From positions 62,001 to 126,000 of the forward strand of contig NZ_WNXY01000008.1 of NCBI RefSeq assembly GCF_009733815.1: 64,000 bases of DNA, written 5' to 3'. The translations under genes and the position numbers were made by a program. This DNA comes from Pseudactinotalea suaedae (GTDB taxonomy: Bacteria > Actinomycetota > Actinomycetes > Actinomycetales > Beutenbergiaceae). Under the pieces are notes generated by a model. The model was not told where the DNA came from. It worked only from the letters and a program-made list of their open reading frames with translations, and searched no databases. Below, piece after piece: positions 43,327 to 62,393 of the stretch (position 1 is the first letter of the stretch; each line of letters opens with the position of its first letter).

Positions 43327-43626
43327 GATGCGTCCCTCCGAAGTTCGGCCTGGCACCTACTCCAGGACCTCTCAACCCTAGTCGCTTGCGAGGGGCGTAA
43401 GCTCCTACGCCTGCGTCCGGCGCGGCAGAGATCTCATCGAATCTTGCGCCGACACCCGGCAACCTTGACCTCCGAGACTCGCCGGTTCCTCATCCGAAGT
43501 CTCGATCGTTTTCCGCGGCGCGCTGGCCGGAGGATCTCCGTGTATGAGCTTGCAGGTCCGTCAGCTGCGAGAGAATCCGCGGCCGCCGCTACGCTCCAAT
43601 CGAGGCAACGGACCAAGGGGTGAGAG
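43327..43626. promoter_or_regulatory. divergent promoter region of the defence island
   Basis: 300 bp between the AIPR and SNF2 helicase starts. It must hold promoters in both directions. No clear -35/-10 pair or palindrome was found. AAGGGG, six bases before the TTG at 43627, is the helicase ribosome site. Confidence 0.5.
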
Positions 43627-46545
43627 TTGACAGTCGACGGCAACCTCCGCGATAGGGCCGAGCCCGCACGCAGGAGCACCACCTTCAACGCCGCCCCCGG
43701 ATCCACGGTCGTGATCCGAGACGAGGAGTGGCTCGTCACAGGCGCCGACCGAACCACCGACGGCTGGTTCGTCCACGTCTACGGCCTGACCGGCATCACG
43801 AAGGACACCACCGCCACTTTCTCCACCGCGATCGACACGGTCGTCGAGTCAGACCCGCGCCTCACCAAGGTCCAAGCCGATGACTCTCCCGGTTTCCGTC
43901 GAAGCCGTATCTGGCTCGAGGCGATGCTCCGCAAGACGCCGGTCCCGATCGACCAGCGAGAGCTCACGGTCGCCCACCGCGCCCTCGCCGACCCACTCGA
44001 ATACCAGCTCAAGGCCGTCCGCCAGGCCCTGGACCCCGCCAACCTGCGCCCGCGGATCCTCCTAGCGGACGCCGTCGGGCTCGGCAAGACCCTCGAGATC
44101 GGCATGATCCTCGCGGAGCTGGTTCGTCGTGGCCGCGGTGACCGCATCCTCGTCGTCACGCCCCGGCACGTCTTGGAGCAGATGCAGTTCGAGCTCTGGA
44201 CCCGGTTCGCCCTCCCGTTCGTCCGCCTGGACTCGAACGGCATCCAGCGCATCCGTCAGCTGCTCCCGGCGACCCGCAACCCGTTCACCTACTTCAAGCG
44301 CGTCATCATCTCCATCGACACCCTGAAGTCGGACACCTACATCAACCACCTGCGCCGTCACCGCTGGGACGCCGTCGTCATCGACGAGTCCCACAACGTC
44401 ACCAACAGCGCCACCCTCAACAACCGGCTCGCCACCCTGCTCTCCCGGCAGACCGACGCCCTCATCCTCGCCTCCGCCACCCCGCACAACGGCCGCGCCG
44501 AGTCCTTCGCCGAGCTCATCCGCATGCTCGAGCCGAGCGCTGTGACGCCCCAGGGCGACCTCATCGAGAGCGAGGTCAAGCGGCTCGTCATCCGCCGGCA
44601 CCGGCACTCCCCGGATGTCGCCAGCGTCGTTGGTTCGGACTGGGCCGAACGCCTTCCCCCGGACCTCCGCATCGTCGACCCGTCCCCCGGCGAGGACGCC
44701 ATCGCCGAGGAGCTCGAGCACACCTGGCTGTGGCCGACCGGCAGCGGCCCGTACTCCGGCTCGGGCAGCACCCTCTTCGCCTGGACCCTCGCCAAGGCGT
44801 TCCTCTCCTCACCCGCGGCTCTCCTCGCCACGGTCACCGACCGACAGTCACGCATATCCGCCAACGACACCCAGGCCGCCGCTCGCGAGCGCGCCGCCCT
44901 CGACACCCTCAAGGACCTCGCACAGCAAGCCCTCGAGCAGCCCTCCGCCAAGTACCAGGAGCTCCTCAAGCACCTCCGCGAGATCGGCGTCGGCAACAAC
45001 GGCGACACCCGCGCCGTCGTGTTCGCCGAGCGCATCGCCACCCTCACCTGGCTCCAGGGAAACCTCCAGCGCGACCTCGGCCTCGCCGACGGTCAGGTCA
45101 AGCTGATGCACGGCGGCCTCTCCGACGTCGAGCAGCAGGACACCGTCGAGGACTTCAAGCTCGCCTCCTCTCGCGCGCGCGTCCTCGTGACCGGCGACGT
45201 CGCATCCGAGGGTGTCAACCTCCATACCCAGTGCCATCACCTCATCCACTTCGACATCCCGTGGAGCCTCATCCGCATCGAGCAGCGCAACGGTCGTATC
45301 GACCGGTACGGGCAACGAAAGCAACCCCGCCTCACCACGCTGCTGCTCTCGCCCAGCACCGAACGCTTTGGCGGCGACATCCGCGTGCTGACCCGCCTCG
45401 TCGAGCGCGAGCACGAGGCGCACACCGCGCTCGGCGACACCGCCTCGCTCATGGGCACCTACGACGTCAAGGCCGAGGAGGATGCGATCCGCGACGTCAT
45501 CCGCGGCGCCCGCTCCTTCGAGGAGACCGTCCGCACCGTCGACGAGGTCGTCGACGCCGACGGCGTCGACGGCTTCCTCGCCCGCCTTCTCAGCCTCGGG
45601 ATGGACGACGACGACGCAGTTCCCCACCCGAGTCCCTCGCCGCAGAGCGTGGCCGGGTCGGGCCTGTTCGACGGCGAGGTCGCCTTCCTGGACTCGGCCC
45701 TGCACCAGGCCTTCAAGACACCAGGTCTCCCCCCGGAGAACGGCGTGGAGTGGAAGACCGAGCCCACCCACGCCATCGCGACCCTCACCCCGCCTCCCGA
45801 TCTGCGGCAGCGGCTGCAGGTGCTCCCGCAGTCGTACCTGCGGGACCGACAAGTGACCGACCGGCTGCGTCTGGCCACCACGGTCGAACGGGGCAAGACC
45901 GTGCTCGCCCAAGCAGTCGCCGCCGAGTCCACCTCCGCGTGGCCAGAGGCCCACTACCTCGCACCCCTCCACCCGGTCCTCGACTGGGCCGCTGACCGTG
46001 CCCTGGCCGAGTTAGGCCGCGGCCACGTGTTCGCCGTCCGCGGGGACGTCGACGCCCCGACAGTGCTGCTGCAAGCCACACTCACCAACGCCCGCGGCCA
46101 GGTGGTTGCGGCCTCCTATCTGCACGCCACCTTCCTCTCGGGTAACCCGACCGCCCGACCTCTGGTGACCCCGTTCGCCTCGGCGAGCGACGCCGTCGGG
46201 GCGCTAGACCTCCTCGACACCAACACCGGGTCGGTCCCGCGCCTCGACCACCTGAACGAGTTCATTTCTCCCGCCGTCGACGCTGCCGCGGTTCAGGTGG
46301 GAGACCAGATCGAAGCCATCGGACACGAGACGAAAAGGCGTGTCGATGCCTGGATCGCCCGATCCGAGCAGTGGACGCGCGCGGCCGAAGCCCTGATCCA
46401 GCGGGAGGCGATCAAGCAGCGGACGCGGGATGTCTCCGAGGAGACCGAGATCGCGCAGGCGATGCGGCCTGAGCGCACCTTGCTGCGCCCGCTGCTCGTG
46501 GTGGTGCCGGACGAACCCGGGTGGACCACGGGAGGGGCAGCCTGA
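43627..46545 (+). CDS. SNF2-family helicase (DrmD-like)
   Basis: A 972-residue SF2 helicase/translocase. Walker A is VGLGK154T, motif II is D253-ESH, motif III is ASATPH, and motif VI is Q553-RNGRIDR. A C-terminal third without motifs follows. Domain order and neighbours match DrmD, which marks class 1 DISARM. It should track along DNA and cooperate with the methyltransferase encoded next, whose ATG overlaps its stop. TTG start with AAGGGG six bases before. Confidence 0.87.
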   Translation: MTVDGNLRDRAEPARRSTTFNAAPGSTVVIRDEEWLVTGADRTTDGWFVHVYGLTGITKDTTATFSTAIDTVVESDPRLTKVQADDSPGFRRSRIWLEAMLRKTPVPIDQRELTVAHRALADPLEYQLKAVRQALDPANLRPRILLADAVGLGKTLEIGMILAELVRRGRGDRILVVTPRHVLEQMQFELWTRFALPFVRLDSNGIQRIRQLLPATRNPFTYFKRVIISIDTLKSDTYINHLRRHRWDAVVIDESHNVTNSATLNNRLATLLSRQTDALILASATPHNGRAESFAELIRMLEPSAVTPQGDLIESEVKRLVIRRHRHSPDVASVVGSDWAERLPPDLRIVDPSPGEDAIAEELEHTWLWPTGSGPYSGSGSTLFAWTLAKAFLSSPAALLATVTDRQSRISANDTQAAARERAALDTLKDLAQQALEQPSAKYQELLKHLREIGVGNNGDTRAVVFAERIATLTWLQGNLQRDLGLADGQVKLMHGGLSDVEQQDTVEDFKLASSRARVLVTGDVASEGVNLHTQCHHLIHFDIPWSLIRIEQRNGRIDRYGQRKQPRLTTLLLSPSTERFGGDIRVLTRLVEREHEAHTALGDTASLMGTYDVKAEEDAIRDVIRGARSFEETVRTVDEVVDADGVDGFLARLLSLGMDDDDAVPHPSPSPQSVAGSGLFDGEVAFLDSALHQAFKTPGLPPENGVEWKTEPTHAIATLTPPPDLRQRLQVLPQSYLRDRQVTDRLRLATTVERGKTVLAQAVAAESTSAWPEAHYLAPLHPVLDWAADRALAELGRGHVFAVRGDVDAPTVLLQATLTNARGQVVAASYLHATFLSGNPTARPLVTPFASASDAVGALDLLDTNTGSVPRLDHLNEFISPAVDAAAVQVGDQIEAIGHETKRRVDAWIARSEQWTRAAEALIQREAIKQRTRDVSEETEIAQAMRPERTLLRPLLVVVPDEPGWTTGGAA

Positions 46546-49500
46546 TGGCGGCGAGCGACGCGATCGTCGTCGGCGAGAGCTGGATCAGCGAGCACTTCAT
46601 GACCACCGACTCCCGCAAGGAGTCGTTCCGCGCCAAGGTGCTCGAGCGTCGCAAGGTGTGGGACGAGGCTCGCGCCGAGGGGCACGACAGCACCCGCCAG
46701 CGCTACCTCGACGCCCGCCGCGATCTGCTGTCCGCACTGAGCACCCTCACCGAAGACGGCGAACAGGCCGAGCTCCCGGCCCTCTACGAGAGACTGCGAG
46801 AGGTCCTCGGCTACACGCGTATCGGATTGAGCCAAGAGCGCCACGGCCCGGTCGTCGCTCTGTCGACCGCCGGGCTCACCGGCGCCGCACCGCTGGTCAT
46901 CGTCGAGGCCGTCGCGGTCTCCGAGGTGGACGACCTGCTGGCTAAGGACGCAGCCACGCTGCTGACCCCCTACGACGTCGATGAGAAGACCCGGATCGTC
47001 TCGGTCGCACGGCTGCTCTCGCACCTGTTCGTCGACGACGACGCACCCGCCTTCGCGCTCGTCCTCGCCGGCGGCGTCGCGCTCGTTGCGGAGCGAACCC
47101 GCTGGCCCGAGGGCCGCTACCTGGCCGTCGACATGCAGCTGGTCGCCGAGCGCGCGGACGACACCAGGGGTGGTGAGACCGACACCGCGCTCACCTGCCT
47201 GGATGCTGCCTCGCTCGCACCCGACGCCGAGGGCGCCATCTGGTGGACCGGCACACTCGAGGAGTCGATCAAGCACACCGTCGGGGTCTCGAAGGACCTG
47301 CGCGAGGGCGTGCGGCTGTCGATCGAGATCATCGCGAACGAGGTGGTGCTGCGTCGCAGGGCGCAGGGGCTGGCGCCGCTGCCGCAGAGTGAGGCGCAGC
47401 CGCTGGCGAAGCAGTCGCTGCGGTTCCTGTACCGGATCCTGTTCCTGCTGTATGCGGAGGCGTCCCCGGAGCTGGGGGTGCTGCCCTCGGGTGTCCCGGC
47501 GTACGAGGCCGGCTACAGCCTGGACCGGCTGCGTGACCTGGTCCAGGTCGAGCTCGCCTCACCGCGCAAGCAGAGCGGCACTCACCTGTACGCCTCGCTC
47601 GCCGCGTTGTTCCGTCTGGTCGATGAAGGGCACGACGGCGGCGCTCACGAGGGCGATGACGGCACCATCGGGGACGGGCTCACCTTCCGCGCGCTGCGCG
47701 CCGACCTGTTCGAGCACAGGGCTACGGCTCACATCGACGAGGTCGGCCTCGGCAACGCAGCGCTCCAGCAGGTGCTGCAGCACCTGCTGCTGAGCAAGGC
47801 GTCGCGCGGCAAGGACCGGGGCTTCATCTCCTACGCCGAGCTCGGCATCAACCAGCTGGGTGCGGTGTACGAGGGCCTCATGAGCTACACCGGCTTCTTC
47901 GCGGAGGACGACCTGTACGAGGTCGCCAAGGGTGGCGACTCGGAGAAAGGTTCGTGGGTGGTCCCCACCCACCGGGCGGACTCGATCGACGAGAAGGACT
48001 TCGTCCGCACCGAGGACCCCGTGACGGGTGAGCCGAAGCGTGTGCTGCACAGGCGCGGCACGTTCGTGTTCCGGCTCTCCGGTCGGGAGCGGCAGCAGTC
48101 GGCGTCGTACTACACGCCGGAGGTGCTGACCCGGTTCACGGTGGGACAGGCGCTCGAGGAGCTGCTGGACCAGGACGACACCACGACCCCCGCCCGCGAC
48201 ATCCTCGACCTCACCGTCTGCGAGCCGGCACTCGGGTCCGGAGCGTTCGCGATCGAAGCGGTGCGTCAGCTTGCGGAGCAATACCTACGGCGGCGGCAGG
48301 AGGAGCTAGGTCAACGGATCGACCCCGACGACTACCCACGCGAACTGCAGAAGGTCAAGGCCTACCTCGCCCTGCACAACGTGTACGGCGTCGACCTCAA
48401 CGCGACTGCGGTGGAACTGGCAGAGATCTCGCTTTGGCTCGACACCATGGGCGAAGGACTGAAGGCACCCTGGTTCGGCCTGCACCTCAAACGCGGCAAC
48501 TCCCTCATCGGATGCCGCCGCACGACGTTCCGGCGCGATCAGGTCGCCGACAAGTCCTGGCTCAAGGCCATCCCGACCGACCAGCCGCTCGACGGCGAGT
48601 CCTTCTCCGGCATCCACCACTTCCTGCTGCCAGCCCGGGGCTGGGGGTCCTCTGAAGAACTCAACGAGGCGAGAGTGATCGCAGATCTCAACCCTGAGAG
48701 CCGAGCTGCCCTCAAGACGTGGCGCAGGAACGTGCAGCAGAGGCCGTCAAAGAAGCAAGTCGAGCAGCTCGCCAGCCTTGCGAACCGCGCCGAGCGCCTC
48801 TGGGACTTCGCGCTCCGGCGCCTGACGATTGCCGAGCAGCAGATCCGCCGACCCATCGAAGTCTGGGGCGCCGAAGACCTGCCAGTGGGTGGCACGGTCA
48901 CCCGTGAGGAGATCGAGGAGTCTCTAGCCGACGCGCGTGGGGCATATCGGCGGCTTCGCACCGTGATGGACGCGTGGAATGCGCTGTGGTTCTGGCCGCT
49001 CAACGGTGAGCTGACCACGCAGACGACCGTCTGCGAGGACGGCGAGTCGCAGGTCGAGCGCATCGATCCGCCGACCCTCGAGCAGTGGATCGATGCCGTC
49101 CGCGGATTGCTCGGCTGGCAGGGCGATGGCGCCTCGACTGGGTCCGGCAGGAAGTGGCGTGGCGGCGACGAGACTCTTGCATCTGGTGCCGACTGGGCCG
49201 AGCTCGGAGTTGCCGAGGAGACCGACCTCGGGTTCGCCGGAGCGTTGAACCCGGAGGCTGTACGCAAGACGCATCCGTGGCTCGATGTGTGCGCAACGGT
49301 CGCAGAGCAGCAAGGGTTCTTCCACTGGGAGCTCGACTTCGCCCCTGTCTTCGCGCGCCGCGGCGGATTCGATCTCCAATTGGGTAACCCGCCCTGGGTG
49401 CGTCCACGTACTGACCTCAACGCACTGCTCGCTGAGAACGACCCATGGTGGCAACTCACAATCAGGCCGCCGCAGTCAGAGGTCCGCGCGAAACTCGAAA

Positions 49501-51269
49501 GCGCACTCGCCCGCCCGGCTGGCGCAGCAATCGTAATTGAGGGAATAGCCTCGATGTCTGCGACGATCTCGTTTCTCGGGGCTCGACCAAACTACCCACG
49601 CCTTGATGGCCTGCAGCCCGATCTGTACCGCTGCTTCATGGAAGCGACTTGGCGCCACCGTTCGCGCCACGGCGCCATCGGTCTTATCCACCCCGAGTCG
49701 CATTTCACCGACGAGAGAGCGCGCCTCCTGCGGGCGTCAGCGTACGAGCGGTTGCGTCGTCACTGGCACTTCGTGAATGAGCTGGTGCTCTTCGAGGTTG
49801 ATCATCACAACAACTACGGCGTCCACATATACGCGTCGCCCCGGCAGCCCTCCTTCTTGCAGGCAACATCGCTATACCATCCGGAGACAGCCGTTCGGTC
49901 GCTGGTTCACGACGGCACTGGCGAAGAACCAGGCTTAAAGGATCCCGCTGGAAACTGGGATGTTCGCCCACACTCTAGACGTATCATGAACGTGGATATC
50001 GGTGTCCTCTCGGTGTGGCATAGCGTTCTCGAGACCGCACCGATCCCCGTATCGCAATCGCGGATGGTGTATGCAGTCAACCGGTCGACGTCAATGGTGG
50101 TCGAGAAGCTAGCCCGTGCTGGCCGAGTCGGTGACTTCTTCTTCTCAGAGGGGTGGCACGAGAGCCGCGACCGGCGGGCGGGGTACATCGCCACCGAGTG
50201 GGGCGCACCAAACTCGTGGATGGACGCGATTGTTCAAGGCCCACACATTCACGTTGCAACGCCCTTCTACAAGCAGCCTAACAAGACCATGTTGCACAAC
50301 CTGGACTGGTCGGTCACAGACTTTGAGGCACTCGCGCCGACAGCAATACCGATTACCCAGTACAAGCCAGGAGGTGCCCGTTCGCGCTACGACGCGGCAT
50401 ATACGCACTGGAAGCAGTCCGTCGACACGGACGATCCAGCCGACGCCGAAGGTCTGCGTCAAGAGGCAGAGACAGTTTCGGCACGTGACTTCTACCGTAT
50501 CGCCTGGCGCAATATGGCGGCAAACTCGGGAGAGCGAACCTTCACACCTGCCTTGATCCCTCCCGGAGCAGCGCATATTCATGGCGTAAGCTCGCTCGCA
50601 CTACCGAGTCAACAGGGAAAGACGGCAGTAATCGCTGGCTTCGCGGCCTCACTTGTGCATGACTTCGCTGTGCGTGTGGCGCCAAAGTCCACGATCTCTG
50701 CAACCACCGTGGGACGGCTTCCATACGTGGACGCGGCGCTAAGCGGTGAGGTCGTCCTGCGTGCGCTTCGCCTGAACGCGTTGACTGAGGTCTACGCGCG
50801 GCTTTGGACGGACTGCTTCGACGCAGACTTCAGGCGCGACTCTTGGACTTGCGTTCCCGAGCGCTCGGGCTGGGCCGACCTCGGCGACGTCGGCCCCGAG
50901 TGGACACCGGACACGCCGCTACGGGTGGCGGAGGACCGCCGGCAAGCGTTACTCGAGATCGACGCGCTGGTCGCGCTGTCGCTCGGCCTCACGGCCGATG
51001 AGCTGTGCACGATCTACCGCACCCAGTTTCCGGTCCTCTACGGCTACGACCGCAACACATACTTCTACGACGAGAACGGTCGCCTGGTCCCCAACTCTGT
51101 GCTCTCGGTGTGGCGGAAGAAGGGTGACGCGATCACCGAGGAGGAACGCACCGCTGTCCACCCGGGTAGCGGCATCGCCTATACCTACGAGCTCCCCTTC
51201 GTCACCCTCGACCGCGAGGCCGACATGCGCAAGGCGTACGCCGTCTTCGAGCAGCGGCTGAAGGGTTGA
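46545..51269 (+). CDS. large N6-adenine DNA methyltransferase (DrmMI/PglX/type IIG-like)
   Basis: A 1574-residue protein. An N-terminal region of about 520 residues precedes SASYYTPEVLTRFTV, motif I (C559-EPALGSGAF), GVDLNATAVELAEISLWL and the catalytic N948-PPW. A target-recognition region fills the rest. This layout is shared by PglX, type IIG enzymes and the class 1 DISARM methylase. It should mark host DNA as self. No nuclease motif was found at its N-terminus, unlike type IIG enzymes. Overlaps the helicase stop (TGATG), with GGAGGGG upstream. Confidence 0.87.
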   Translation: MAASDAIVVGESWISEHFMTTDSRKESFRAKVLERRKVWDEARAEGHDSTRQRYLDARRDLLSALSTLTEDGEQAELPALYERLREVLGYTRIGLSQERHGPVVALSTAGLTGAAPLVIVEAVAVSEVDDLLAKDAATLLTPYDVDEKTRIVSVARLLSHLFVDDDAPAFALVLAGGVALVAERTRWPEGRYLAVDMQLVAERADDTRGGETDTALTCLDAASLAPDAEGAIWWTGTLEESIKHTVGVSKDLREGVRLSIEIIANEVVLRRRAQGLAPLPQSEAQPLAKQSLRFLYRILFLLYAEASPELGVLPSGVPAYEAGYSLDRLRDLVQVELASPRKQSGTHLYASLAALFRLVDEGHDGGAHEGDDGTIGDGLTFRALRADLFEHRATAHIDEVGLGNAALQQVLQHLLLSKASRGKDRGFISYAELGINQLGAVYEGLMSYTGFFAEDDLYEVAKGGDSEKGSWVVPTHRADSIDEKDFVRTEDPVTGEPKRVLHRRGTFVFRLSGRERQQSASYYTPEVLTRFTVGQALEELLDQDDTTTPARDILDLTVCEPALGSGAFAIEAVRQLAEQYLRRRQEELGQRIDPDDYPRELQKVKAYLALHNVYGVDLNATAVELAEISLWLDTMGEGLKAPWFGLHLKRGNSLIGCRRTTFRRDQVADKSWLKAIPTDQPLDGESFSGIHHFLLPARGWGSSEELNEARVIADLNPESRAALKTWRRNVQQRPSKKQVEQLASLANRAERLWDFALRRLTIAEQQIRRPIEVWGAEDLPVGGTVTREEIEESLADARGAYRRLRTVMDAWNALWFWPLNGELTTQTTVCEDGESQVERIDPPTLEQWIDAVRGLLGWQGDGASTGSGRKWRGGDETLASGADWAELGVAEETDLGFAGALNPEAVRKTHPWLDVCATVAEQQGFFHWELDFAPVFARRGGFDLQLGNPPWVRPRTDLNALLAENDPWWQLTIRPPQSEVRAKLESALARPAGAAIVIEGIASMSATISFLGARPNYPRLDGLQPDLYRCFMEATWRHRSRHGAIGLIHPESHFTDERARLLRASAYERLRRHWHFVNELVLFEVDHHNNYGVHIYASPRQPSFLQATSLYHPETAVRSLVHDGTGEEPGLKDPAGNWDVRPHSRRIMNVDIGVLSVWHSVLETAPIPVSQSRMVYAVNRSTSMVVEKLARAGRVGDFFFSEGWHESRDRRAGYIATEWGAPNSWMDAIVQGPHIHVATPFYKQPNKTMLHNLDWSVTDFEALAPTAIPITQYKPGGARSRYDAAYTHWKQSVDTDDPADAEGLRQEAETVSARDFYRIAWRNMAANSGERTFTPALIPPGAAHIHGVSSLALPSQQGKTAVIAGFAASLVHDFAVRVAPKSTISATTVGRLPYVDAALSGEVVLRALRLNALTEVYARLWTDCFDADFRRDSWTCVPERSGWADLGDVGPEWTPDTPLRVAEDRRQALLEIDALVALSLGLTADELCTIYRTQFPVLYGYDRNTYFYDENGRLVPNSVLSVWRKKGDAITEEERTAVHPGSGIAYTYELPFVTLDREADMRKAYAVFEQRLKG

Positions 51270-51270
51270 G

Positions 51271-51720
51271 ATGCTCGCCGCCGCGTGGTACCCGGACCCC
51301 ATGCACCCAGGACAGTTCCGCTACTGGGACGGCGACAGGTGGACAGAGCATGTCTCGGCTCGTGTGGGACACGTCCCGGTGCGCAAGCCCAAGCGGCATG
51401 CGATCCCCGACTGGTACGTCGCGGAGAGCGGCGACGGCATCCAGTACTGGAACGGCGTCGCCTGGGTAGGCGATGTCACCGGACGCCGAGATCGCGAGGA
51501 AGCACCGCGCCAACACCTCTCACCGATCGAGGTCAGCAGCATCAAGACGATTGGTGAGATGGAAGCAACGGCCTTCGGACGACGGCCTTGGCGCGCTATC
51601 GCGACGGTGGGCGGCTACAGGTACACCGCGTGGGGCGGCACTCGGGCCCAAGCGGAGCGCATCGCCGTCAGGGGCGTCCGGCGCATGGCGAAGACGGACC
51701 GCACTAGGACGATCGGATGA
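51271..51720 (+). CDS. small double-DUF2510 protein
   Basis: A 149-residue soluble protein with two DUF2510-like repeats: WYPDPMHPGQFRYWDGDRWT (about residues 6-25) and DWYVAESGDGIQYWNGVAW (about 47-65). A basic C-terminal half follows. DUF2510 usually sits at the N-terminus of membrane proteins, but there is no helix here. It starts 1 bp after the methylase stop and ends 4 bp before the big helicase, so it belongs to the defence operon. Confidence 0.75.
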   Translation: MLAAAWYPDPMHPGQFRYWDGDRWTEHVSARVGHVPVRKPKRHAIPDWYVAESGDGIQYWNGVAWVGDVTGRRDREEAPRQHLSPIEVSSIKTIGEMEATAFGRRPWRAIATVGGYRYTAWGGTRAQAERIAVRGVRRMAKTDRTRTIG

Positions 51721-51724
51721 CTCT

Positions 51725-54700
51725 ATGAGCGAACTCATCCCCGTCACCCAGGCAGCGTCGCAACGCAGCAGCCTGCTCGAGTACCTCGGCACCACGTTTT
51801 CGCTCAACGATGTCGGCACCCGGCTCGCTCTAACGGAGTTTCTCGACAACCCCACATCGGGCATGTTCCGCGGCCCCTACGTCCGGCTTCGACTGCCGTT
51901 CGCCCGTGCCGCAGAGGGATGGCGTGAGCACTTCGAGTGGTACGAGGGATTCCGGCCCTACGGGCATCAGGCCGCCACCTTCGCGCGGTTGTCGAGCCTG
52001 ACCAACCCAAGGCCGCTGCCGACGCTCGTCACGACCGGGACCGGGTCCGGCAAGACGGAGTCGTTCCTGATGCCGATCCTTGACCACGTCAGTCGCGCCA
52101 AGCGGCAGGGCATCGACGGGATGAAGGCGATCATCCTCTACCCGATGAACGCACTGGCGAACGACCAGGCCGGCCGACTCACCACTCTGCTCACCCAGCA
52201 CGCCGACCTCGACGGCATCACCGCCGCCCTCTACACCGGCCAGGGCGGACCGGAACGCTCCAAGGTCACCGTGGATGGCCTCATCACGAGCCGCGAGATT
52301 ATCCGCGACACCCCGCCCGACATCCTGCTCACCAACTACAAGATGCTCGACCAGCTCCTGCTCCGGGAGAAGGACGCCAAGCTCTGGCGGGAGTCAGCAA
52401 CCAGCCTCACCTACCTCGTCATCGACGAGTTCCACACCTACGACGGCGCCCAGGGCACCGACGTCTCCATGCTGCTGCGCCGCCTCGGCATCGCGCTCAA
52501 GTCCTACTGGAGCGACGACGACCCCACCATCACGCCCGCGGACCGCGCCCGCCCGCTCGGCCGGATCACCCCCGTCGCCACCTCCGCCACGCTCGGGAGC
52601 AGCGAGGACGCCACCGGTACCGCCGCTCTGCTCGAGTTCGCCACCACCGTCACCGGCGAGACCTTTGGTCCCGACGCGGTGATCACCGAGTCGCGCATCG
52701 CGATCGAGGACTGGGTCGGCGAAGCGCCGCGCTGGGCCCGCGCCCACCGATGGCTGCCGCTGGATCTCCCCGACGCGGCATCCGACCTTGCCGCTCTCGC
52801 CGGGCAGCGGCTCGACGCCGAGGCACTCACGCGCGCCGCCCTGGCAGCTCTGTTCCGCGTCGCGCCAGCTGATGTCGACCTCACACGTGAGGTGGGCGCC
52901 GTCGCGCCCGCAGCCTCAGCTGACTGGGCATTGCCGGACCTGTCCACACTCGACGAGCAGGATCTTCTGGAGCTCGCCAAGGCCCATCCCGTGATCGCCG
53001 ACCTCGGCGACCTCACCGGGGACGCCCTCGATCTCACTGAGCTCGCGACCGCGCTGACGCCCCGCCGTGCGGACGCCGAGTATGACCCGATCACGGTCGT
53101 CTCGACGATCCTCACAGCGCTGTCTCACCTGCGCGCGCGCGTCGGCCGTGACGCCGTGTCGGTGGACGTCCACCTCTGGGTCCGCGAGCTCACCCGCGTC
53201 GACCGGATCGCCGGCTCATCGCCACAGTTCCGGTGGAGCGACGACGGCGTGGTCATCACCTCGCACGGCGAGGAGGACAGCCCCGGGTTCCCTGCGATCT
53301 ACTGCCGTCACTGCGGACGCTCCGGTTGGGGTGTCGCCCTCGCCCCGACCGGCACCGACCTGGACACCTCGGACGCCGACATCCGCGGCCGGCACCTGCG
53401 ACGCGACGAACGGTTCCGGCCACTCATCCACGCACCCGGCGAGGCCGAGACCGTGGGAGACGGCGCACCAACCGATGCCGAGCACAGGAACTTCATCTGG
53501 TTCCACGTGCCCGAGCGTCGGCTCGTGCTGCGCCGCGACGACGCCGCCCATCAAGAAGGCGACCTGCTGCCCGTGCTCACCCACCGCGGTGACGATGCCG
53601 GGAAGCGCTCGACGGACGACGTCTGCCCCTCCTGCGAAGAGCCCGACGCGATCCGGTTCCTCGGCTCAGCGATCGCGACCCTCCTCTCCGTGGCTCTCAC
53701 CGGTCTCTTCGGGACGCCCAACCTCGACGCTGCCGAGAAGAAGGCGCTCGTCTTCACCGACAGCGTCCAGGACGCTGCCCACCGAGCAGGCTTCGTCCAG
53801 GCCCGCTCGCACGCCTTGACCCTGCGCGGGGTGATGCACCAGGCGATGGATGGAGGCGCCGTCGACCTCACTCAGCTCGTCGAGAACATGATCCGCAGCG
53901 CCGACGACCCCCACCAGCGCTACCTCCTGCTCCCTCCGGATCTCGCCGACCGGAGCGCCTTCCGGCGGTTCTGGGAGGCGAAGCGTCTCCGGGACGTGCC
54001 GAACGCCGTGATTCGTCGCGTCCGCAAGCGACTCATGCTCGACGTGCAGCTCGAGTTCGGGCTGCGCTCGGCCGTCGGGCGCACGCTCGAGGCCACCGGC
54101 TCCGTCGTGGCTGATGTCGACGTCGACGACGCCGTGCTGCTCGCCGCAGCCCGGGAGGCATTGGAGACGCCGGGGGCGACCGACCTGCTCGACGGCCTAG
54201 GCCCTGACGACACCCAGCTCGTGCGCTGGGTCCGCGGTGTCCTACATCGCATGCGCACTCGCGGTGCCGTGCAGCACGAATGGTTCGACACGTTCCGCGC
54301 CGAGGATGGGCGCCGTTGGTCCATCTGGGGCGGCCGGCCGCGCCACGACGGGATGCCCGCCTTCCCGCGAGGCGCGTCAGCCCCCGGATACCCACGGCTC
54401 GGCGGCAGCGCCACCGACTCCGATCTCGAGCCGGCCACCTCGCCGCGCGGCTGGTACTCGGGATGGACGTCGAAGACGATGGGCGTCGACCGCACCGGTG
54501 GTGCCCACCTGACGCGGGCGTTGCTGACCGCTCTGGCCAAGAGGACCGTGGTCGGCACCAGGCAGTCCGGGTCCGGTGCCACGACCTTCCACCTCAGCCC
54601 GGACAACGTCACGGTGCTGCGTGCTGATGTCGCAGCGCTCGAGCGGGGTGATCTTGCGCTCGCCTGTGACACCTGCGGGGAGAAGGTACACGCGGCGGTG

Positions 54701-57700
54701 GCACGCGTCGCGGTGCTCGACGGCGGACCGTGCTTGGTGGATCGATGCGCCGGGCACCTGCATCGACAGCCGCTGACGGACAACTTCTACCGGCGCATGT
54801 ATGCAGCGCCCGACGTGCGACGGGTCGTGGCGCGCGAGCACACGAGCCTGCTTCCGGATGACGTGCGGCTGGAGTACGAGACCCAGTTCAAGGCATCCGA
54901 CCCGGCACCCGATGCCCCCAACGTGCTGGTAGCCACACCGACGCTGGAGATGGGCGTCGACATCGGCGACCTGTCCGCCGTCATGCTCTCGTCGCTGCCG
55001 AAGTCGGTGGCGTCCTACCTGCAGCGGGTGGGACGCGCGGGGCGACTCACCGGCAACTCGCTGACCCTGGCGTTCGTCACCGGTCGAGCAGAGCAGCTGC
55101 CGCGGTTCACCTCCCCGCTGCAGACGATCAACGGTGAGGTGAGGCCGCCGGCCACCTACCTGGCTGCCGAGGAGATCCTCCAGCGGCAGTACATCGCCTC
55201 GATCGCCGACGCCCTCGCGCGCCGCTCCGACGCACCTCACCCGGCCACCAGTCCCGAAGCGATCGGCTCCGTCGAGCCGGGCAGCTATCTTCGGGCGCTC
55301 GTCGACGAGGCGGAGGAGGATTCCGGCGTCCACCTCGATGCGTTCCTCGACGCGTTCGCCGACCTGCCCGAAGCGGCCGTCACGTTGCTGCGGGGGTGGG
55401 CAACCCGGCCCGACGGCGTCACACCGATGACGAGCGGACTCGCCGCTCGCTGCCTGGCCGCGAGCGCCGCCTGGCGAACGCGGGTGGAGGAGCTCGACTT
55501 CCGCCGTCAGGAGATCGAGAAGGCGATCCCCGAGTTGCAGCAGCTGGCTGAGAGCCCTGCGGCCTCCTCGGAGGACAAGGACAACCTGCGGACCGCGAGG
55601 GCCGCCTATGGCCTCGGAGGGAAGCAGCTCAGCGAACTGCGGGGGGAGTACTGGGTCTCCACGCTGGAGGAGTTCGGGCTGCTGCCGAACTACACGCTGC
55701 TGGATGACTCCGTGACCCTCGAGGTCTCGCTCTCGTGGATCGACCCGGAGACGCAGGAGTACCGCGACGAGCCGATCGTGGTCGAGCGCGGCTCAGCCCA
55801 GGCGCTGCGGGACTTCGCTCCCGGGGCCACGTTCTATGCACGCGGGTACGCGATCGAGATCGACGCGGTCGAGCTCGGCCCGGACTCCGTGCGCACCTGG
55901 ATCTGCTGCCCCGCATGCGGCTACGTGCAGGAGGAAGAGCCGGCGCCGTCGACCTGTCCGCGTTGTCGCGCCACCGGGATTGCGGACGTGGCGCAGCGGC
56001 TGCCCGTCGTGGAGATGAAACGGGTCTCCTCGGCGATGCGCCGCGAGGAGGCGGTCATCGATGGGGAGCGCGATGAGCGGCTGCGCGAGCAGTACCAGGT
56101 AGCGACGCTCGCCGACATCGACCCCGAGCGGGTGGTGCGGCGCTGGTTCGTGGACTCGTATGGTTTCGGCGCCACCTACGTCCGAGACATGACAGTGCGC
56201 TGGGCCAACCTCGGCAAGGGCAGCGCTCGGGGGGCATCGAGAACGCTGGCGAACGAGGAGAGCACCGCACCCTTGTTCCGGCTGTGCTCAGCTTGCGGAA
56301 AGCTCGACACCACGACCGGAGCAAACCGAGCGAGCGAGCACCGACCCTGGTGTCGACTTCGGCGCGCCACCGAGGAAGAGGCCACGAGCATCGCGCTCAC
56401 CAGGTCGCTGCGGACCGAGGGTTTGGTGCTGCGGCTGCCGTCGTCGGTGACGCTGGGGGATCGGTTCGCCATCCCGAGCTTGTCCGCGGCTGTGCTGCTG
56501 GCGCTACGGGAACGGCACGGTGGGTCACCGGACCACCTCGCCATCGCGCCGATCGTGGACCCCTCCCCGCGCGATGAGGAGAATCCGGACGCGCTGCTGC
56601 TCCACGACATCGTGCCCGGGGGTACCGGATATCTGGCCGAGCTGGCCGACCCGGAGGCGGTGTGGGCGATGCTCCGCCGGGCGTGGTACGTGCTGCGGGA
56701 GTGCCCCTGCCGGTTCGAAGGACGGCTGGCCTGCGAGCGATGCCTGCTCCCGTTCGCACACGGCGCCGCCGTGGAACGGACCTCGCGGGCGGTTGCTGAG
56801 CGGGCCCTGCGAGCACTGCTGTTCTCGGGCTCGGCACCCACGGGTGTTGACGAACTACTCGAGGTGGCCGAGGACATGCGGTGGTTAGTGACCGCCGAGG
56901 AGCCCACGGCACCGGATCGGGAGTCCCAGCTCGAGCAGCTGTTCCGGATGGTGCTGCGACAGCGGTTGGAGACCCTTGGCGCAACGATCACCGAGCAGCC
57001 AGGCACCGAGGGCACCGCCTGGCAGATCGTGCTCGGCGGCGGAAGACGATGGCGGCTGGAGCCGCAGCAGTTCGTCGCCGGCTCCAAGCCCGACTTCGTG
57101 CTCACCAGCAACCACCCGGAGATTCCACCAACCGCGATCTTCACCGATGGTTGGCGCTACCACGCCTCTCCGATCATGAACCGGATCGCCGACGACGCTG
57201 CCAAGCGTGAAAACCTCCGGATCGCCGGCTATCAGGTGCTCGCCTTCACATGGGAGGACCTCGACGCCGCTCGCACGCCGTCGACGGGCTCGGTCACGGT
57301 TCCGTGGCTAGCTCCCGGGGCGACCCAGGTCGTCCTCGCACAGGCTAAGGATGGGCTCTCGCCGGCCACGCTCGACCTGGTGACACGACCTCCGTTCGAG
57401 CTGCTGATCGACTGGATCGGCAACCCGGCGCCGGATCGACGCACGGCCCTGGCTCGGTGGCTGCCGCTGCTGGTGCTCCCCAAGGCCAGAGGCCAAGGCC
57501 TCGACGGTGAGGTTCCTCTCGCCGAAGCTGGGGTGCGGGCGCTCGACGGCGACCCGGTGCCGACTGGTGCGACGGTCGGCGGCGTGTGGCGGTACGACAC
57601 GCTCGCCGTCGCCGTCCGCGTCACCGACCGAACGAGCTTCGCATGCGAGATCGCGACCGTGCTCGACGACCGGACCGACGCCGTCGGACAGGATCACAAG

Positions 57701-58111
57701 GATGCCTGGAGAGAGTGGCTGAGGCTGGCGAATCTGCTGTCGTTCAGCGAGGGCGGGATGCGGATCACCGCAGCGTCGATCACGAAGGCGGGCCCCGCCG
57801 TCGAGCCCGAGGATCACACTGCCGCTGACGAGCAGGACATCTCACCTGCCTGGGCGCCCCTGATCCACGAGGCGATGCCGGAGGAGCGGGAGTTGCTCTA
57901 CTCGCTGGCGGATCTCTCCTTCGTTGCCCCGGCGCCGGTGCTCGGCGAGGAGGCTGGAGATGGCATCCCAATCACGTTGTCGTGGCCCGCTGTCAAGGTG
58001 GCGGTCGACATGGGTGAACTTGCAGAGGCAGACCGCGAGTCGCTCCGGACACAGGGTTGGCGGCTCGTGCCTGCTGACGTCGCAGAGCTGAGAAAGGCAC
58101 TGGAGGACTGA
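51725..58111 (+). CDS. giant DUF1998 DEAD/DEAH helicase with nuclease-like tail (DrmA/DruE-like)
   Basis: A 2128-residue protein. Walker A is TGTGSGK110T, motif II D234-EFH, motif III TSATLG, motif VI Q1100-RVGRAGR. Zinc-binding cysteines include C1395-x2-C1398 and the DUF1998 block (H1627-D, then C1660-x-C1662 and C1670-x2-C1673). The tail has KPD1790-F and FTD1808-GWRYH, resembling a PD-(D/E)xK or Vsr-like nuclease. DruE and DrmA/DrmB are the closest known types. The ATG at 51725 is preferred; its stop overlaps the next start. Confidence 0.85.
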   Translation: MSELIPVTQAASQRSSLLEYLGTTFSLNDVGTRLALTEFLDNPTSGMFRGPYVRLRLPFARAAEGWREHFEWYEGFRPYGHQAATFARLSSLTNPRPLPTLVTTGTGSGKTESFLMPILDHVSRAKRQGIDGMKAIILYPMNALANDQAGRLTTLLTQHADLDGITAALYTGQGGPERSKVTVDGLITSREIIRDTPPDILLTNYKMLDQLLLREKDAKLWRESATSLTYLVIDEFHTYDGAQGTDVSMLLRRLGIALKSYWSDDDPTITPADRARPLGRITPVATSATLGSSEDATGTAALLEFATTVTGETFGPDAVITESRIAIEDWVGEAPRWARAHRWLPLDLPDAASDLAALAGQRLDAEALTRAALAALFRVAPADVDLTREVGAVAPAASADWALPDLSTLDEQDLLELAKAHPVIADLGDLTGDALDLTELATALTPRRADAEYDPITVVSTILTALSHLRARVGRDAVSVDVHLWVRELTRVDRIAGSSPQFRWSDDGVVITSHGEEDSPGFPAIYCRHCGRSGWGVALAPTGTDLDTSDADIRGRHLRRDERFRPLIHAPGEAETVGDGAPTDAEHRNFIWFHVPERRLVLRRDDAAHQEGDLLPVLTHRGDDAGKRSTDDVCPSCEEPDAIRFLGSAIATLLSVALTGLFGTPNLDAAEKKALVFTDSVQDAAHRAGFVQARSHALTLRGVMHQAMDGGAVDLTQLVENMIRSADDPHQRYLLLPPDLADRSAFRRFWEAKRLRDVPNAVIRRVRKRLMLDVQLEFGLRSAVGRTLEATGSVVADVDVDDAVLLAAAREALETPGATDLLDGLGPDDTQLVRWVRGVLHRMRTRGAVQHEWFDTFRAEDGRRWSIWGGRPRHDGMPAFPRGASAPGYPRLGGSATDSDLEPATSPRGWYSGWTSKTMGVDRTGGAHLTRALLTALAKRTVVGTRQSGSGATTFHLSPDNVTVLRADVAALERGDLALACDTCGEKVHAAVARVAVLDGGPCLVDRCAGHLHRQPLTDNFYRRMYAAPDVRRVVAREHTSLLPDDVRLEYETQFKASDPAPDAPNVLVATPTLEMGVDIGDLSAVMLSSLPKSVASYLQRVGRAGRLTGNSLTLAFVTGRAEQLPRFTSPLQTINGEVRPPATYLAAEEILQRQYIASIADALARRSDAPHPATSPEAIGSVEPGSYLRALVDEAEEDSGVHLDAFLDAFADLPEAAVTLLRGWATRPDGVTPMTSGLAARCLAASAAWRTRVEELDFRRQEIEKAIPELQQLAESPAASSEDKDNLRTARAAYGLGGKQLSELRGEYWVSTLEEFGLLPNYTLLDDSVTLEVSLSWIDPETQEYRDEPIVVERGSAQALRDFAPGATFYARGYAIEIDAVELGPDSVRTWICCPACGYVQEEEPAPSTCPRCRATGIADVAQRLPVVEMKRVSSAMRREEAVIDGERDERLREQYQVATLADIDPERVVRRWFVDSYGFGATYVRDMTVRWANLGKGSARGASRTLANEESTAPLFRLCSACGKLDTTTGANRASEHRPWCRLRRATEEEATSIALTRSLRTEGLVLRLPSSVTLGDRFAIPSLSAAVLLALRERHGGSPDHLAIAPIVDPSPRDEENPDALLLHDIVPGGTGYLAELADPEAVWAMLRRAWYVLRECPCRFEGRLACERCLLPFAHGAAVERTSRAVAERALRALLFSGSAPTGVDELLEVAEDMRWLVTAEEPTAPDRESQLEQLFRMVLRQRLETLGATITEQPGTEGTAWQIVLGGGRRWRLEPQQFVAGSKPDFVLTSNHPEIPPTAIFTDGWRYHASPIMNRIADDAAKRENLRIAGYQVLAFTWEDLDAARTPSTGSVTVPWLAPGATQVVLAQAKDGLSPATLDLVTRPPFELLIDWIGNPAPDRRTALARWLPLLVLPKARGQGLDGEVPLAEAGVRALDGDPVPTGATVGGVWRYDTLAVAVRVTDRTSFACEIATVLDDRTDAVGQDHKDAWREWLRLANLLSFSEGGMRITAASITKAGPAVEPEDHTAADEQDISPAWAPLIHEAMPEERELLYSLADLSFVAPAPVLGEEAGDGIPITLSWPAVKVAVDMGELAEADRESLRTQGWRLVPADVAELRKALED

Positions 58112-60387
58112 TGCCCCACGTCATCATGCAGGCCGGGAAGCAGAAGCTCGACGGCAGCGTCAAGAAGTCCGTCTTCGAGTTCTTGGAGAAGCTCGGCGAG
58201 GACGACGCGCTGCCCGGCCTGCACATCGAGCCCATCACCGGGACCCTCGATGCGCGAGTGCGGACGGGGCGGGTCAACGACTTCTGGCGCGCGGTGCTGT
58301 TCAAGCTGCAGGGAGAGGCCGATCCGGAGCCGCACTATCTATATGTGGGCACGTTTCCGCACGACGAAGCGATCACCTATGCGAAGAAGGTGCGGCTGCG
58401 GGTCAACCCCGTCAACGGCATCGCCGAGCTGATCCAGGAGACGGAGCCGACTCTCCATAAGACGCCAGAGTGGACGCAGTCCGCGCCGAAGGCACCTGAG
58501 CCGGTGATCTCGTACCCGATGCTCGAGACCCAGGGGATCTCAGAGCAGGATCTGCTCGCCCTGGGTATCGAGGCGGCCTTCGCGGCTGCGGCCGTGGCCG
58601 TGACGAACGAAGAGGCCCTGCTGGCACTGGCCGAGGAGGCGCCGGCCCAGTGGCAGGGTGTCGCGGTCCTCGACCTGGCATTCGGCAAGAAGCTCGACCA
58701 GGTGAAGATGACCATCGGGCTGATTCCCGATCCTGAGGACGAGGAGTCGGCGGTTGAGGGGCCTGCGGTTGAGCCGCCGGCGCCCAAGACTGAGGACGAC
58801 GAGCTCTTGGCGGCCATGCGTCGCAAGGGTGCACAGCTGCAGTTCCGGTTCATCGAGGACGACGAGGAGCTGCGCGCGGCGGTCGAGGGCGACTTCGCCG
58901 CGTGGCGGGTTTTCCTGCACCCCGAGCAGCGGGCCTATGCGACGAGGAAGCGGAACGGCGCGTTCCGGCTCTCTGGCGGGGCGGGGACTGGAAAGACGGT
59001 CGTGCTACTGCACCGGGCGCGGCACCTGGTCCGTTCGGATCCCGCTACGCGGGTTGTGCTGACGACGTTCAACCGAACGCTGGCGGACTCGCTGTCTGAT
59101 CAGTTGGCGGTGCTGGATCCGAAGGTGCCCACGGTCTCGCTCGGTGGCTCGGGTGTGACAGTGGCGTCTGTGGACGCACTGGTGCGAAAGGTGCTAACGG
59201 CGCCGGATGCCGGCCTGGCATCGACCGAAGGCGCGATGGGCGCCGTCGAACGCGTGCTCGGGCCACGGACGATCGAGGTGGTGTCGCAAACAGCCCAAGG
59301 CGCCTGGCAGGCCGCCATCGACAGAGTGACCGAGCTCCCGCCGCACCTGCGCAGCGTGACGTTCTTCGAGGCGGAGTACGCGACGGTGGTGCTGCCGAAC
59401 CTCGTGCGTACAGAGGCGGACTACCTAACCGTGCGGCGACCCGGCCGTGGCGTGCCGCTGGCGCGGGCAGCACGGAAGGCGGTATGGGAGGTCATCGCCG
59501 CATACCGGGCGGCGGCTGCTATCGCGGGCACCACCGACTGGGACGAGAAGGCCATGATCGCGGCTATGTCGCTGGACGATCGGGTGCGGCGAGGGCTCGA
59601 GCGGCCTGCCGACAGCATGCTGGTGGATGAGGCGCAGGATCTGACGCCGTCTCGGTTGCGGTTCCTGCGGGCGTTGGTAGATCAGGGACCGAACGACCTG
59701 TTCCTGGCCGAGGACGCTCACCAGCGGATCTACGGGCAGAAGGTGGTGCTGGCGCGGTACGGCATCAACATCCGTGGGCGTTCGCGGCGACTGACGCTCA
59801 ACTACCGGACGACGGCGCAGAACCTGAGCTTCGCCGTCGACGTGCTCTCGGGTGCGGAGTACTCGGATCTGAGCGACGAATCGGCGAGCGTCGAGGGCTA
59901 CCGGTCGTCGCGCTCCGGACCGCAGCCGCAGCTGCGACGCTACGACTCGTTGGCGGCGGAGTACGCCGGAGCGGCGACGACCGTACAGGCCTGGATCGAC
60001 GACGGCGCCGCACCTCACACGATCGGCGTGCTGACGCGAACACGCCACACGGCCGAATCCGTGGAGCGGGAGCTCCGGGACGCGGGAGTCCCCGTGCGCT
60101 TCGTGGAACGGGACACGTCGAGCTCATCGAACGGCTCGGTGCAGGTCATGACGATGCACCGCGCGAAGGGCATGGAGTTCTCGAAGGTCGTGCTCTTCGA
60201 GATGAGCGCTGGTGCCGTCCCGTCCGCGTTCGCGCTCGGGAACGTACCTGAGGGCGAGATCGCGGATGCCATGCTTCGCGAGCGTTCGCTCGTCTACGTT
60301 GCCGCGACTCGGGCACGTGACGAGCTCGTCGTGGTGTGGAGCGGCGAACGAAGCCAGCTTCTTCCTGCAGACCGTGTTGGAGCCTGA
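58111..60387 (+). CDS. UvrD-family helicase with RelE/ParE-like N-terminus
   Basis: A 758-residue protein. Residues 1-105 look like a RelE/ParE fold (DFWRAVLFKL, then YLYVGTFPHDEAI). A linker region with acidic stretch leads to an SF1 helicase: GGAGTGK295T, D506-EAQDL, MTMHRAKGMEF and VAATRARDEL. The ATG overlaps the giant helicase stop. The RelE-like part could bind the ribosome or RNA, or act only as a scaffold; its catalytic state cannot be judged from sequence alone. Confidence 0.83.
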   Translation: MPHVIMQAGKQKLDGSVKKSVFEFLEKLGEDDALPGLHIEPITGTLDARVRTGRVNDFWRAVLFKLQGEADPEPHYLYVGTFPHDEAITYAKKVRLRVNPVNGIAELIQETEPTLHKTPEWTQSAPKAPEPVISYPMLETQGISEQDLLALGIEAAFAAAAVAVTNEEALLALAEEAPAQWQGVAVLDLAFGKKLDQVKMTIGLIPDPEDEESAVEGPAVEPPAPKTEDDELLAAMRRKGAQLQFRFIEDDEELRAAVEGDFAAWRVFLHPEQRAYATRKRNGAFRLSGGAGTGKTVVLLHRARHLVRSDPATRVVLTTFNRTLADSLSDQLAVLDPKVPTVSLGGSGVTVASVDALVRKVLTAPDAGLASTEGAMGAVERVLGPRTIEVVSQTAQGAWQAAIDRVTELPPHLRSVTFFEAEYATVVLPNLVRTEADYLTVRRPGRGVPLARAARKAVWEVIAAYRAAAAIAGTTDWDEKAMIAAMSLDDRVRRGLERPADSMLVDEAQDLTPSRLRFLRALVDQGPNDLFLAEDAHQRIYGQKVVLARYGINIRGRSRRLTLNYRTTAQNLSFAVDVLSGAEYSDLSDESASVEGYRSSRSGPQPQLRRYDSLAAEYAGAATTVQAWIDDGAAPHTIGVLTRTRHTAESVERELRDAGVPVRFVERDTSSSSNGSVQVMTMHRAKGMEFSKVVLFEMSAGAVPSAFALGNVPEGEIADAMLRERSLVYVAATRARDELVVVWSGERSQLLPADRVGA

Positions 60388-60389
60388 TA

Positions 60390-61124
60390 ATGACGGAGTT
60401 GGCAGAGCAGCCTGAGACGCTGGCGCGTCGCTTCCTTGATGCTGTGTCGCGAATCGAAGCCGCAATCAAGCGTCGTCATCCCGACGCATCACGGAGTGGC
60501 GGATTAGGCACTCTCGTGCGTTCCCTCGATCGTCGGGACAAGGTAATCCGCACCTATCATCGGGAACTCACCGACTTTGCCGAATTGCGCAACGCGATCG
60601 TCCACAACCCGTACGACGGTGGCATCCCCATTGCAGTTCCGTTGGTCACGACAGTGACGCGGATCGAGACGATAGCCCTGCAGATCGAGAACCCTGTCAC
60701 TGTTGAGACGGCACTGCGCGGCTTCCCACCGCTCCGAACCGTGAGTCGGGCGTCACGGATCCACACGCTCATGCGGGACATGCTCGAGTACGACTACTCA
60801 CAACTCGTCGTCTACGACCCTGACCAACCCGCAACCCTTCTGACGACCAACACGATCGCCCGCTGGGTCGCGTCCGTCATTGACGACGAGGGTGAGGGCG
60901 TTCTGCTGGCAGCGACGGTAGGCGAGCTGCTTCAGCTTGCAGAAGAGGAGGTGGTATCTGCCGTGAAGCCGCGAACACCCATCGCCGACGTCATCGCCAA
61001 GTTTGCGTCCGAATTCGTGCCCCGGGCCGTGCTGGTCACGCGGACCGGGACCAGGACCTCGGACCCAGTCGGCATCTTTGTCACAGCTGACCTACCTCGA
61101 CTCAACCGCCTTCTCGACACTTAG
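60390..61124 (+). CDS. HEPN-like protein with CBS-like repeats
   Basis: A 244-residue protein. The N-terminal helical part has R67-NAIV-H72, the Rx4-6H motif of HEPN RNases. The C-terminal part looks like a CBS pair (SRIHTLMRDMLEYDYSQLVV and VIAKFASEFVPRAVLV), which in other proteins binds adenine nucleotides. It starts 2 bp after the UvrD stop and is the last gene of the operon. An RNase effector gated by a nucleotide is the natural guess, but this is inferred. Confidence 0.65.
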   Translation: MTELAEQPETLARRFLDAVSRIEAAIKRRHPDASRSGGLGTLVRSLDRRDKVIRTYHRELTDFAELRNAIVHNPYDGGIPIAVPLVTTVTRIETIALQIENPVTVETALRGFPPLRTVSRASRIHTLMRDMLEYDYSQLVVYDPDQPATLLTTNTIARWVASVIDDEGEGVLLAATVGELLQLAEEEVVSAVKPRTPIADVIAKFASEFVPRAVLVTRTGTRTSDPVGIFVTADLPRLNRLLDT

Positions 61125-61870: not shown

Positions 61871-62081
61871 GCGTCCTCCAGTGGTTGAGATCAGCGTGCA
61901 AGTGCGGGGCGAGGTGGATGAGGATCGGGTCGTCCGGGTCGAGCTGGGCATCGCGACGGTTCTAGCGCTCGATGCGGTCGAGGATCGAGGGGGAAATGCC
62001 CAGCGTGCGAGCCACAGCGGCCCTCCCGAGACCGGGGGCCGTGAGGCATCGGGCTGCTCCCGACCGTTCAACTTCATTCAT
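61866..62081 (-). pseudogene. HTH gene interrupted by a stop
   Basis: From the ATG at 62081 a short HTH protein reads GLGRAAVARTLGISPSILDR, then a TAG at 61962-61964. Beyond it the same frame continues as plausible protein (DPDDPILIHLAPHLHADLNHW) up to the glycosylase start. It is either a 39-residue protein or a regulator gene broken by a nonsense mutation. Confidence 0.45.
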
Positions 62082-62169: not shown

Positions 62170-62393
62170 TCATGGCTGCTCGTAGTGCCGCCGGATGGCC
62201 GTGGACATGAGCCGTCGTCGTTCGATCACGAACTCGCAAGAGGAGCCGGCGTCCACCTCAGCCAGCCTCGCGGCACGGCGCTCTCGCGGACGTTTCGCAG
62301 CAGCTCTGCTTCTGTGGCGATCTCGCCAAGGCTAGGCAGATCGGTTGGTCGCCCATTCGTGGAGCAGAGCAAAAGCCGACGTACGTCTTCCAC
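62170..62393 (-). pseudogene. possible frameshifted small gene
   Basis: A GTG at 62393 opens a frame with protein-like content (LPSLGEIATEAELLRNVRES) that stops at 62226. The -1/+1 neighbour frame continues it to a stop at 62170. Short and unrecognised; weak evidence. Confidence 0.25.

Follow-up and report, generated by a model that had tools for sequence, protein, structure and literature searches.

The 64,000-nucleotide stretch of the Pseudactinotalea suaedae genome analyzed here (contig NZ_WNXY01000008.1, positions 62,001 to 126,000; hereafter, the window) carries a six-gene operon at 43627-61124 that is almost certainly a complete ARMADA type II locus (ArmA-ArmB-ArmC-ArmD) extended by two genes, one for a DUF2510 protein in the armB-armC junction and one for a HEPN-CBS protein past armD. 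ARMADA type II is a published four-gene antiphage system (Bell et al. 2025, PMC12458937), described in the main text of that paper as having a strict order: a BrxHII/RapA-like ArmA, a PglX-like ArmB, an ArmC in which a Vsr-type nuclease is fused to a YprA-like helicase, and an ArmD that joins RelE and a GajB-like UvrD helicase in one protein. In Escherichia coli, protection requires all four genes, and the authors call the mechanism direct and non-abortive; infected cells stay intact, although the highest phage doses cause some lysis (PMC12458937). Apart from the two add-ons, which most relatives lack, the operon appears to be an actinobacterial copy of this known system and is mainly a new example of it.

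The four core genes occur in the published order, with one 149-codon gene between the second and the third. Using the ARMADA II locus of E. coli ATCC 8739 as reference, the window proteins aligned with their counterparts at 36% identity for ArmA (442 bits, 81% of the window protein covered), 33% for ArmB (706 bits, 93%), 29% for ArmC (593 bits, 88%), and 31% for ArmD (300 bits, 97%). All eight residues mutated in the published work are conserved in the window proteins, including the Walker A lysine and Walker B aspartate of ArmA and the NPPW and GxG residues of ArmB; the mutants were numbered for strain NCTC 12900, and ATCC 8739, to which our alignments were made, has the same residues at these positions. 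Two of the published mutations, ArmD D454 and ArmB G605, caused only partial loss in E. coli (PMC12458937). A first-pass annotation of this DNA, made from its letters alone, had placed the operon possibly near a DISARM-related array type; with four of four core genes in order, it belongs to that very type. The same annotation's RelE-UvrD protein, considered unfamiliar, turned out to be the defining fourth ARMADA II gene, and the label "new or poorly described" can be kept for the add-ons alone, as the core has already been phage-tested in E. coli by others.

The six open reading frames (ORFs) proposed by that annotation are real and co-directional on the plus strand; neighboring genes either overlap or lie no more than 4 nucleotides (nt) apart. 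The armA stop (TGA, 46543-46545) overlaps the armB ATG at 46545, and an alternative in-frame armB GTG at 46521 would give a 25-nt overlap; the ArmA start codon is uncertain, the coordinate used being the upstream-most TTG. The armB stop at 51269 is followed after 1 nt by the DUF2510 gene, and the armC ATG at 51725 lies 4 nt past that gene. From this ATG, ArmC has the length attributed to it at first, 2128 residues, and it contains Pfam MZB (equivalent to DUF1998); a longer armC ORF (2212 amino acids) starts within the DUF2510 gene. Finally, the armC stop overlaps the armD ATG at 58111, and the armD stop at 60387 precedes the HEPN-CBS ATG at 60390 by a gap of 2 nt.

Coordinates of the operon genes and the flanking genes in the window (aa, amino acids; E, expectation value)
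Feature	Coordinates	Strand	Basis
ArmA, SNF2/RapA (BrxHII-like) helicase, 972 aa	43627..46545	+	Pfam SNF2-rel_dom and Helicase_C
ArmB, PglX-like adenine methyltransferase	46545..51269	+	Pfam Eco57I methylase
Add-on gene 1, DUF2510 protein, 149 aa, in the ArmB-ArmC junction	51271..51720	+	Pfam DUF2510, E 8.9e-14
ArmC, YprA-family DEAD helicase with DUF1998/MZB, 2128 aa	51725..58111	+	Pfam DEAD, Helicase_C, MZB
ArmD, RelE-superfamily N-terminus (approximately residues 1-110) and GajB-like UvrD helicase, 758 aa	58111..60387	+	Pfam UvrD
Add-on gene 2, HEPN-CBS protein, 244 aa, predicted nucleotide-gated RNase	60390..61124	+	Motif, family profile
AIPR/AbiU-type defence gene, 580 aa, divergent neighbor outside ARMADA	41614..43356	-	AIPR, E 8.2e-39; PADLOC AbiU, E 2.5e-110
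OGG-like glycosylase family gene, downstream, operon boundary	61184..62077	-	Pfam OGG, E 4.5e-38

The domain architecture of ArmC and ArmD supports this assignment. In ArmC, the region past DUF1998, where the published description puts the Vsr-type nuclease, aligns with E. coli ArmC and gave no Pfam Vsr match; residues E1737, D1790, D1808, and H1813, C-terminal of DUF1998, are invariant in all 40 ArmC sequences aligned, and 19 cysteines are conserved in 39 to 40 of them, in keeping with the zinc-binding CxxC modules of ARMADA II ArmC. The C-terminus of ArmC is presented here as a predicted Vsr-like nuclease region. A quick 44-row tree grouped the window ArmC with 39 other ArmC proteins, including that of E. 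coli, and left DruE and three distant YprA-like proteins outside the group, where placing is unsure owing to the long branches of DruE and some further rows. Within the ArmC group, the window protein belongs to a well-supported set of seven, with loci L018-L022 and L027 (loci of relatives are designated L and genomes G). The RelE domain of ArmD was not found by Pfam and is supported at the level of structure: a model of the N-terminal 124 residues, built with two relatives (predicted local distance difference test [pLDDT] of 77), matched RelE toxins of the YoeB/ParE type (6n90, E 5.3e-4, probability 1.00). GajB profiles were among the PADLOC matches listed for the same protein.

Three points weigh against this identification. 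The window proteins share just 29 to 36% identity with those of the tested E. coli system, a distance that leaves antiphage activity a prediction. A gene stands between ArmB and ArmC, against the "strict gene order" of the original paper; 12 of 36 relatives also carry extra DNA at this junction. Moreover, no ARMADA model appeared among the best 25 PADLOC or NCBIfam matches per protein, the labels on the core genes being DrmD, DrmMI, type IIG, and DruE.

These labels raise the question of whether the operon is a class 1 DISARM variant with a fused drmAB. In its favor are the pairing of an SNF2 helicase with a methylase, the best PADLOC matches of ArmA (DrmD at 291 bits, then the DrmA profile at 206 bits), and a DrmMI match of 185 bits for ArmB. 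Nevertheless, the NCBIfam DrmD score of ArmA (318 bits) falls far below its cut-off of 610, ArmB is matched over its full length and far better by the PADLOC profile "REase_MTase_IIG" (1420 bits), the best PADLOC matches of ArmC are DruE with DrmA only weak, and ArmD is present. As the first-pass annotation had noted, a separate drmB and the PLD nuclease drmC are lacking: there is a single fused helicase, Pfam found no PLD domain in the six proteins, and what matched PLD-helicase profiles of PADLOC and NCBIfam in ArmA was its helicase portion. We therefore rejected membership in class 1 DISARM, which the comparison of ArmC with its E. coli counterparts also contradicts, and regard the fused variant as having next to no probability. 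Membership in Druantia was likewise rejected, as ArmC scores 593 bits to E. coli ArmC and 127 bits to DruE from the same E. coli island, and DruH was not seen among the best 25 matches for each of the eight proteins scanned. Gene content and scores thus bear out the initial impression of an operon related to DISARM and Druantia that matches neither.

ARMADA II is not restricted to this genome within the order. ArmD was matched at E ≤ 1e-40 in 46 of 396 genomes, at 48 places, and the stretches around 40 of these were examined; the places without a stretch of their own are that of the window, the six weakest (G107, G186, G373, G391, G158, and G330), and a second ArmD in G285, which lies inside the stretch taken for the first. 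ArmC was also present in 35 of the 40 stretches, a count that includes L038, apparently the same contig as L003, and absent from five (L025, L036, L037, L055, and L056). A contig scan with a single ArmC protein, which finds close relatives only, returned two relatives, and none were found among viral contigs. The ArmD-like genes of L037, L055, and L056 lie near genes that resemble armA and armB only distantly; two of these loci, L037 and L056, open with a distant YprA-like ORF, as does the ARMADA type I order. At L020 and L006, ArmC is followed by two adjacent ArmD or UvrD-type genes. Among eight genes scanned after ArmD in relatives, six had a clear family (KAP NTPase, DarT-like, NOV_C twice, UvrD helicase, and DNA ligase) and two had none, so that no shared fifth gene emerged.

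New in this analysis is a recurrent insertion junction between armB and armC. Extra DNA of 1.0 to 13.2 kb separates the two genes in 12 of 36 other loci (L018-L022, L035, L041-L043, L045, L046, and L054), five of them from one genus and two from another. Gaps of at least 300 nt were found at none of 38 armC-armD junctions and none of 27 armA-armB junctions; with kinship ignored, Fisher tests of the armB-armC junction gave 5.7e-5 against armC-armD and 6.5e-4 against armA-armB. Junctions were measured from ORF to ORF, except at L018, L019, L020, and L046, where the ends of the ArmB matches were used. The armB-armC count excludes the five ArmD stretches without ArmC, L007 (also without ArmC), L040 and L052 (no visible upstream ArmB), and L038 (the apparent duplicate). 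In the set of seven to which the window belongs, six have something at this junction, L027 alone being without.

The contents of the inserts vary among loci, and the genes scanned belong mostly to defence-related families. The Pfam scan covered 14 of 25 printed insert ORFs and one of L071; part of the remaining ORFs may not be true genes. The L021 insert encodes FRG and PIN proteins, and that of L045 encodes a ThsB-type TIR and a SLATT protein. GmrSD was found in the inserts of L018, L019, and L041, Schlafen AlbA_2 in those of L041 and L054 (the latter also with AAA_15), a YhcG nuclease in L035, a DEAD helicase in L043, a phage integrase in L022, and AAA in L071. A 1264-residue protein in the L042 insert had no Pfam match.

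Two loci carry an inverted extra copy of the armB 3' end. At L022 (3746-8180; G011, a genome from the family of the window), the copy follows armB and is itself followed by a tyrosine integrase, and the inverted arms are 92 to 99% complementary. This arrangement is likely to be an invertible specificity switch of ARMADA II. At L071 (7667-11355, genome G285), an inverted armB 3' copy of 963 nt with 81% identity lies 1.8 kb from armB, with the ORF of an AAA-type ATPase between the two. L040 begins at a contig edge with a piece of an inverted armB copy. No description of such a switch was found in the literature searched on ARMADA/DISARM and on PglX/BREX phase variation.

The first add-on of the window had been annotated as a double-DUF2510 protein; one repeat was scored by Pfam, and the second is recognizable by eye only. 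The protein was matched at E ≤ 1e-5 in 75 of 396 genomes, mostly over little beyond the approximately 30-residue domain, and apart from the window only L019/L068 was seen to carry such a gene within an ARMADA operon. A literature search found no paper joining DUF2510 and phage. An adaptor function is a guess that we offer with low confidence.

In the HEPN-CBS protein, the HEPN motif RNAIVH occupies residues 67-72, and 10 of the 12 members of the family that were aligned share RNxxxH, the exceptions being L064 (RExxxH) and L010 (without the region). The CBS domain is weak in the window protein alone (Pfam E 0.017, below the cut-off) and clear in the family profile. A fold model was poor (mean pLDDT of 54, two usable rows), and consequently the HEPN call rests on the motif and the family; the 50 listed of 311 Foldseek matches to this model were weak and, by title, CBS-containing proteins. 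The HEPN-CBS protein was matched at E ≤ 1e-6 in 7 of 396 genomes, the window genome included. At L060 (7965-12231) and L065, from two genera, HEPN-CBS genes directly adjoin type ISP enzymes of the restriction-modification kind, and at L063 a relative has a YobI-type ATPase no more than 2 kb away on the opposite strand. An annotated methyltransferase lies within 7 kb of the plasmid-borne relatives on four of five plasmids (L005 has none in view), a count given without a background rate and in which L011 and L012, related plasmids sharing neighbors, are not independent. The type ISP neighborhoods hint at a recurrent link between HEPN-CBS genes and methylase systems. Viral contigs contained one relative for the window query and none for two other HEPN-CBS queries, and two records titled as phages of Enterococcus and Listeria (OR846607.1 and OR849199.1) carry relatives with 28 to 30% identity over at least 88% of the query.

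How the add-ons relate to the core admits more than one explanation. They could be obligate parts of a new integrated six-gene system, with HEPN-CBS, for example, as an effector triggered by the core. The gaps of 1, 4, and 2 nt that bind both genes into the operon fit this idea, and the type ISP and plasmid methyltransferase neighborhoods make a methylase link conceivable. The co-conservation of six genes expected from such a system failed to appear, however: a family profile found no HEPN-CBS homologue in any of 43 other ArmD loci (five of which have <1 kb of sequence available past ArmD). Besides the window genome, the only one of the seven HEPN-CBS genomes also to be found among the 46 with ArmD is G006, where the two genes lie approximately 2.5 Mb apart along the contig. 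Since the E. coli system, in addition, functions with four genes, we consider the integrated system improbable and treat HEPN-CBS and DUF2510 as add-ons.

Alternatively, the add-ons, and they alone, may be neutral passengers, functionally unconnected with the transcribed defence operon in which they happened to land. Neither gene is conserved with the system, and their relatives elsewhere stand alone or beside other systems, which makes this a serious possibility, although one that we hold somewhat below even. Against it stand the near-gapless spacing in the operon and the fact that only the ArmB-ArmC junction recurrently carries extra DNA, with scanned genes that are mostly defence-related. 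The recurrent inserts and the tight spacing together suggest selection for co-expression. A broader reading, to which we give just short of an even chance, is that the armB-armC junction of actinobacterial ARMADA II is a dedicated site for the exchange of varied back-up modules (DUF2510, FRG with PIN, TIR with SLATT, GmrSD, Schlafen, the YhcG nuclease, and others). In that reading, the inverted armB 3' ends of at least two genomes, once beside a tyrosine recombinase, would provide switchable target recognition, and the window operon would represent one state of a layered system.

By analogy with E. coli, the core would block phage directly and non-abortively as a methylase-linked helicase-nuclease machine. 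ArmB would recognize a DNA sequence and methylate it, presumably marking the cell's own DNA. The ArmA translocase and the ArmC helicase-nuclease would act on phage DNA, which the Vsr-like C-terminal region of ArmC may cut, and ArmD, required in E. coli, would contribute with its GajB-like helicase and RelE-type domain. The HEPN-CBS protein would most likely serve as an independent back-up RNase, its CBS pair switched by an adenine-type ligand, and would act as a second line, closing down the cell once the first has failed. Gene content, order, homology, and conserved catalytic residues are what the sequence shows; activity, like any cooperation between add-ons and core, is inferred.

Around the operon, the divergent AIPR/AbiU-type gene starts 270 nt from armA, in a stretch of lower guanine-plus-cytosine (GC) content (approximately 58%). 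Two metallo-beta-lactamase-fold proteins are encoded in the window, at 62345-63802 and 26621-27736, the latter in a dip of 58% GC within a window mostly of approximately 70% GC. No RNA families or tRNAs were found within the 64-kb window and, because of this, no tRNA insertion site is visible.

A distant actinobacterial ARMADA II (approximately 30% identity) that retains all tested residues is useful for structure work. It is likewise useful for defence annotation, as the PADLOC and NCBIfam versions searched label these genes DrmD, type IIG, and DruE. If upheld in a wider census, the armB-armC insertion point would show where the family acquires its back-up effectors. The inverted armB copies, for their part, point to inversion as a means of switching DNA specificity.

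Compared with known systems, the window operon shares with ARMADA II of E. coli NCTC 12900/ATCC 8739 the four core genes, their order, the domain fusions, and the nuclease-type residues, and it differs by its sequence distance from ATCC 8739 and by the added DUF2510 and HEPN-CBS genes; the words HEPN, CBS, DUF2510, accessory, and AIPR are all absent from the main text of PMC12458937. Class 1 DISARM has an SNF2 helicase, a methylase, and a YprA-type helicase in common with the window, whereas its split drmA/drmB and PLD drmC were not found there and ArmD was. Druantia type III shares the large DUF1998 helicase-nuclease, but no DruH was seen in the window (best 25 matches each); the E. coli ATCC 8739 island carries DruE, and no Druantia III was found among the window proteins scanned. 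A 2013 paper already noted HEPN-CBS fusions (PMC3710099), and the DefensePredictor study describes DS-11, a HEPN-CBS single-gene defence whose phage protection needs both HEPN and CBS residues (PMC13092281). By that description, DS-11 resembles the window protein, which combines the same pair of domains, HEPN and CBS, in one protein; DS-11, however, is a single-protein defence, whereas the window gene closes an operon. BREX and BREX-related loci are known from PMC12839542 to harbor embedded back-up effectors; the main text of that paper does not contain the word ARMADA. Like the window, the BREX-type loci described there hold accessory nucleases (HEPN, Schlafen, and GmrSD) within a core methylase defence operon; unlike those embedded effectors, the inserts of ARMADA II concentrate at one junction.

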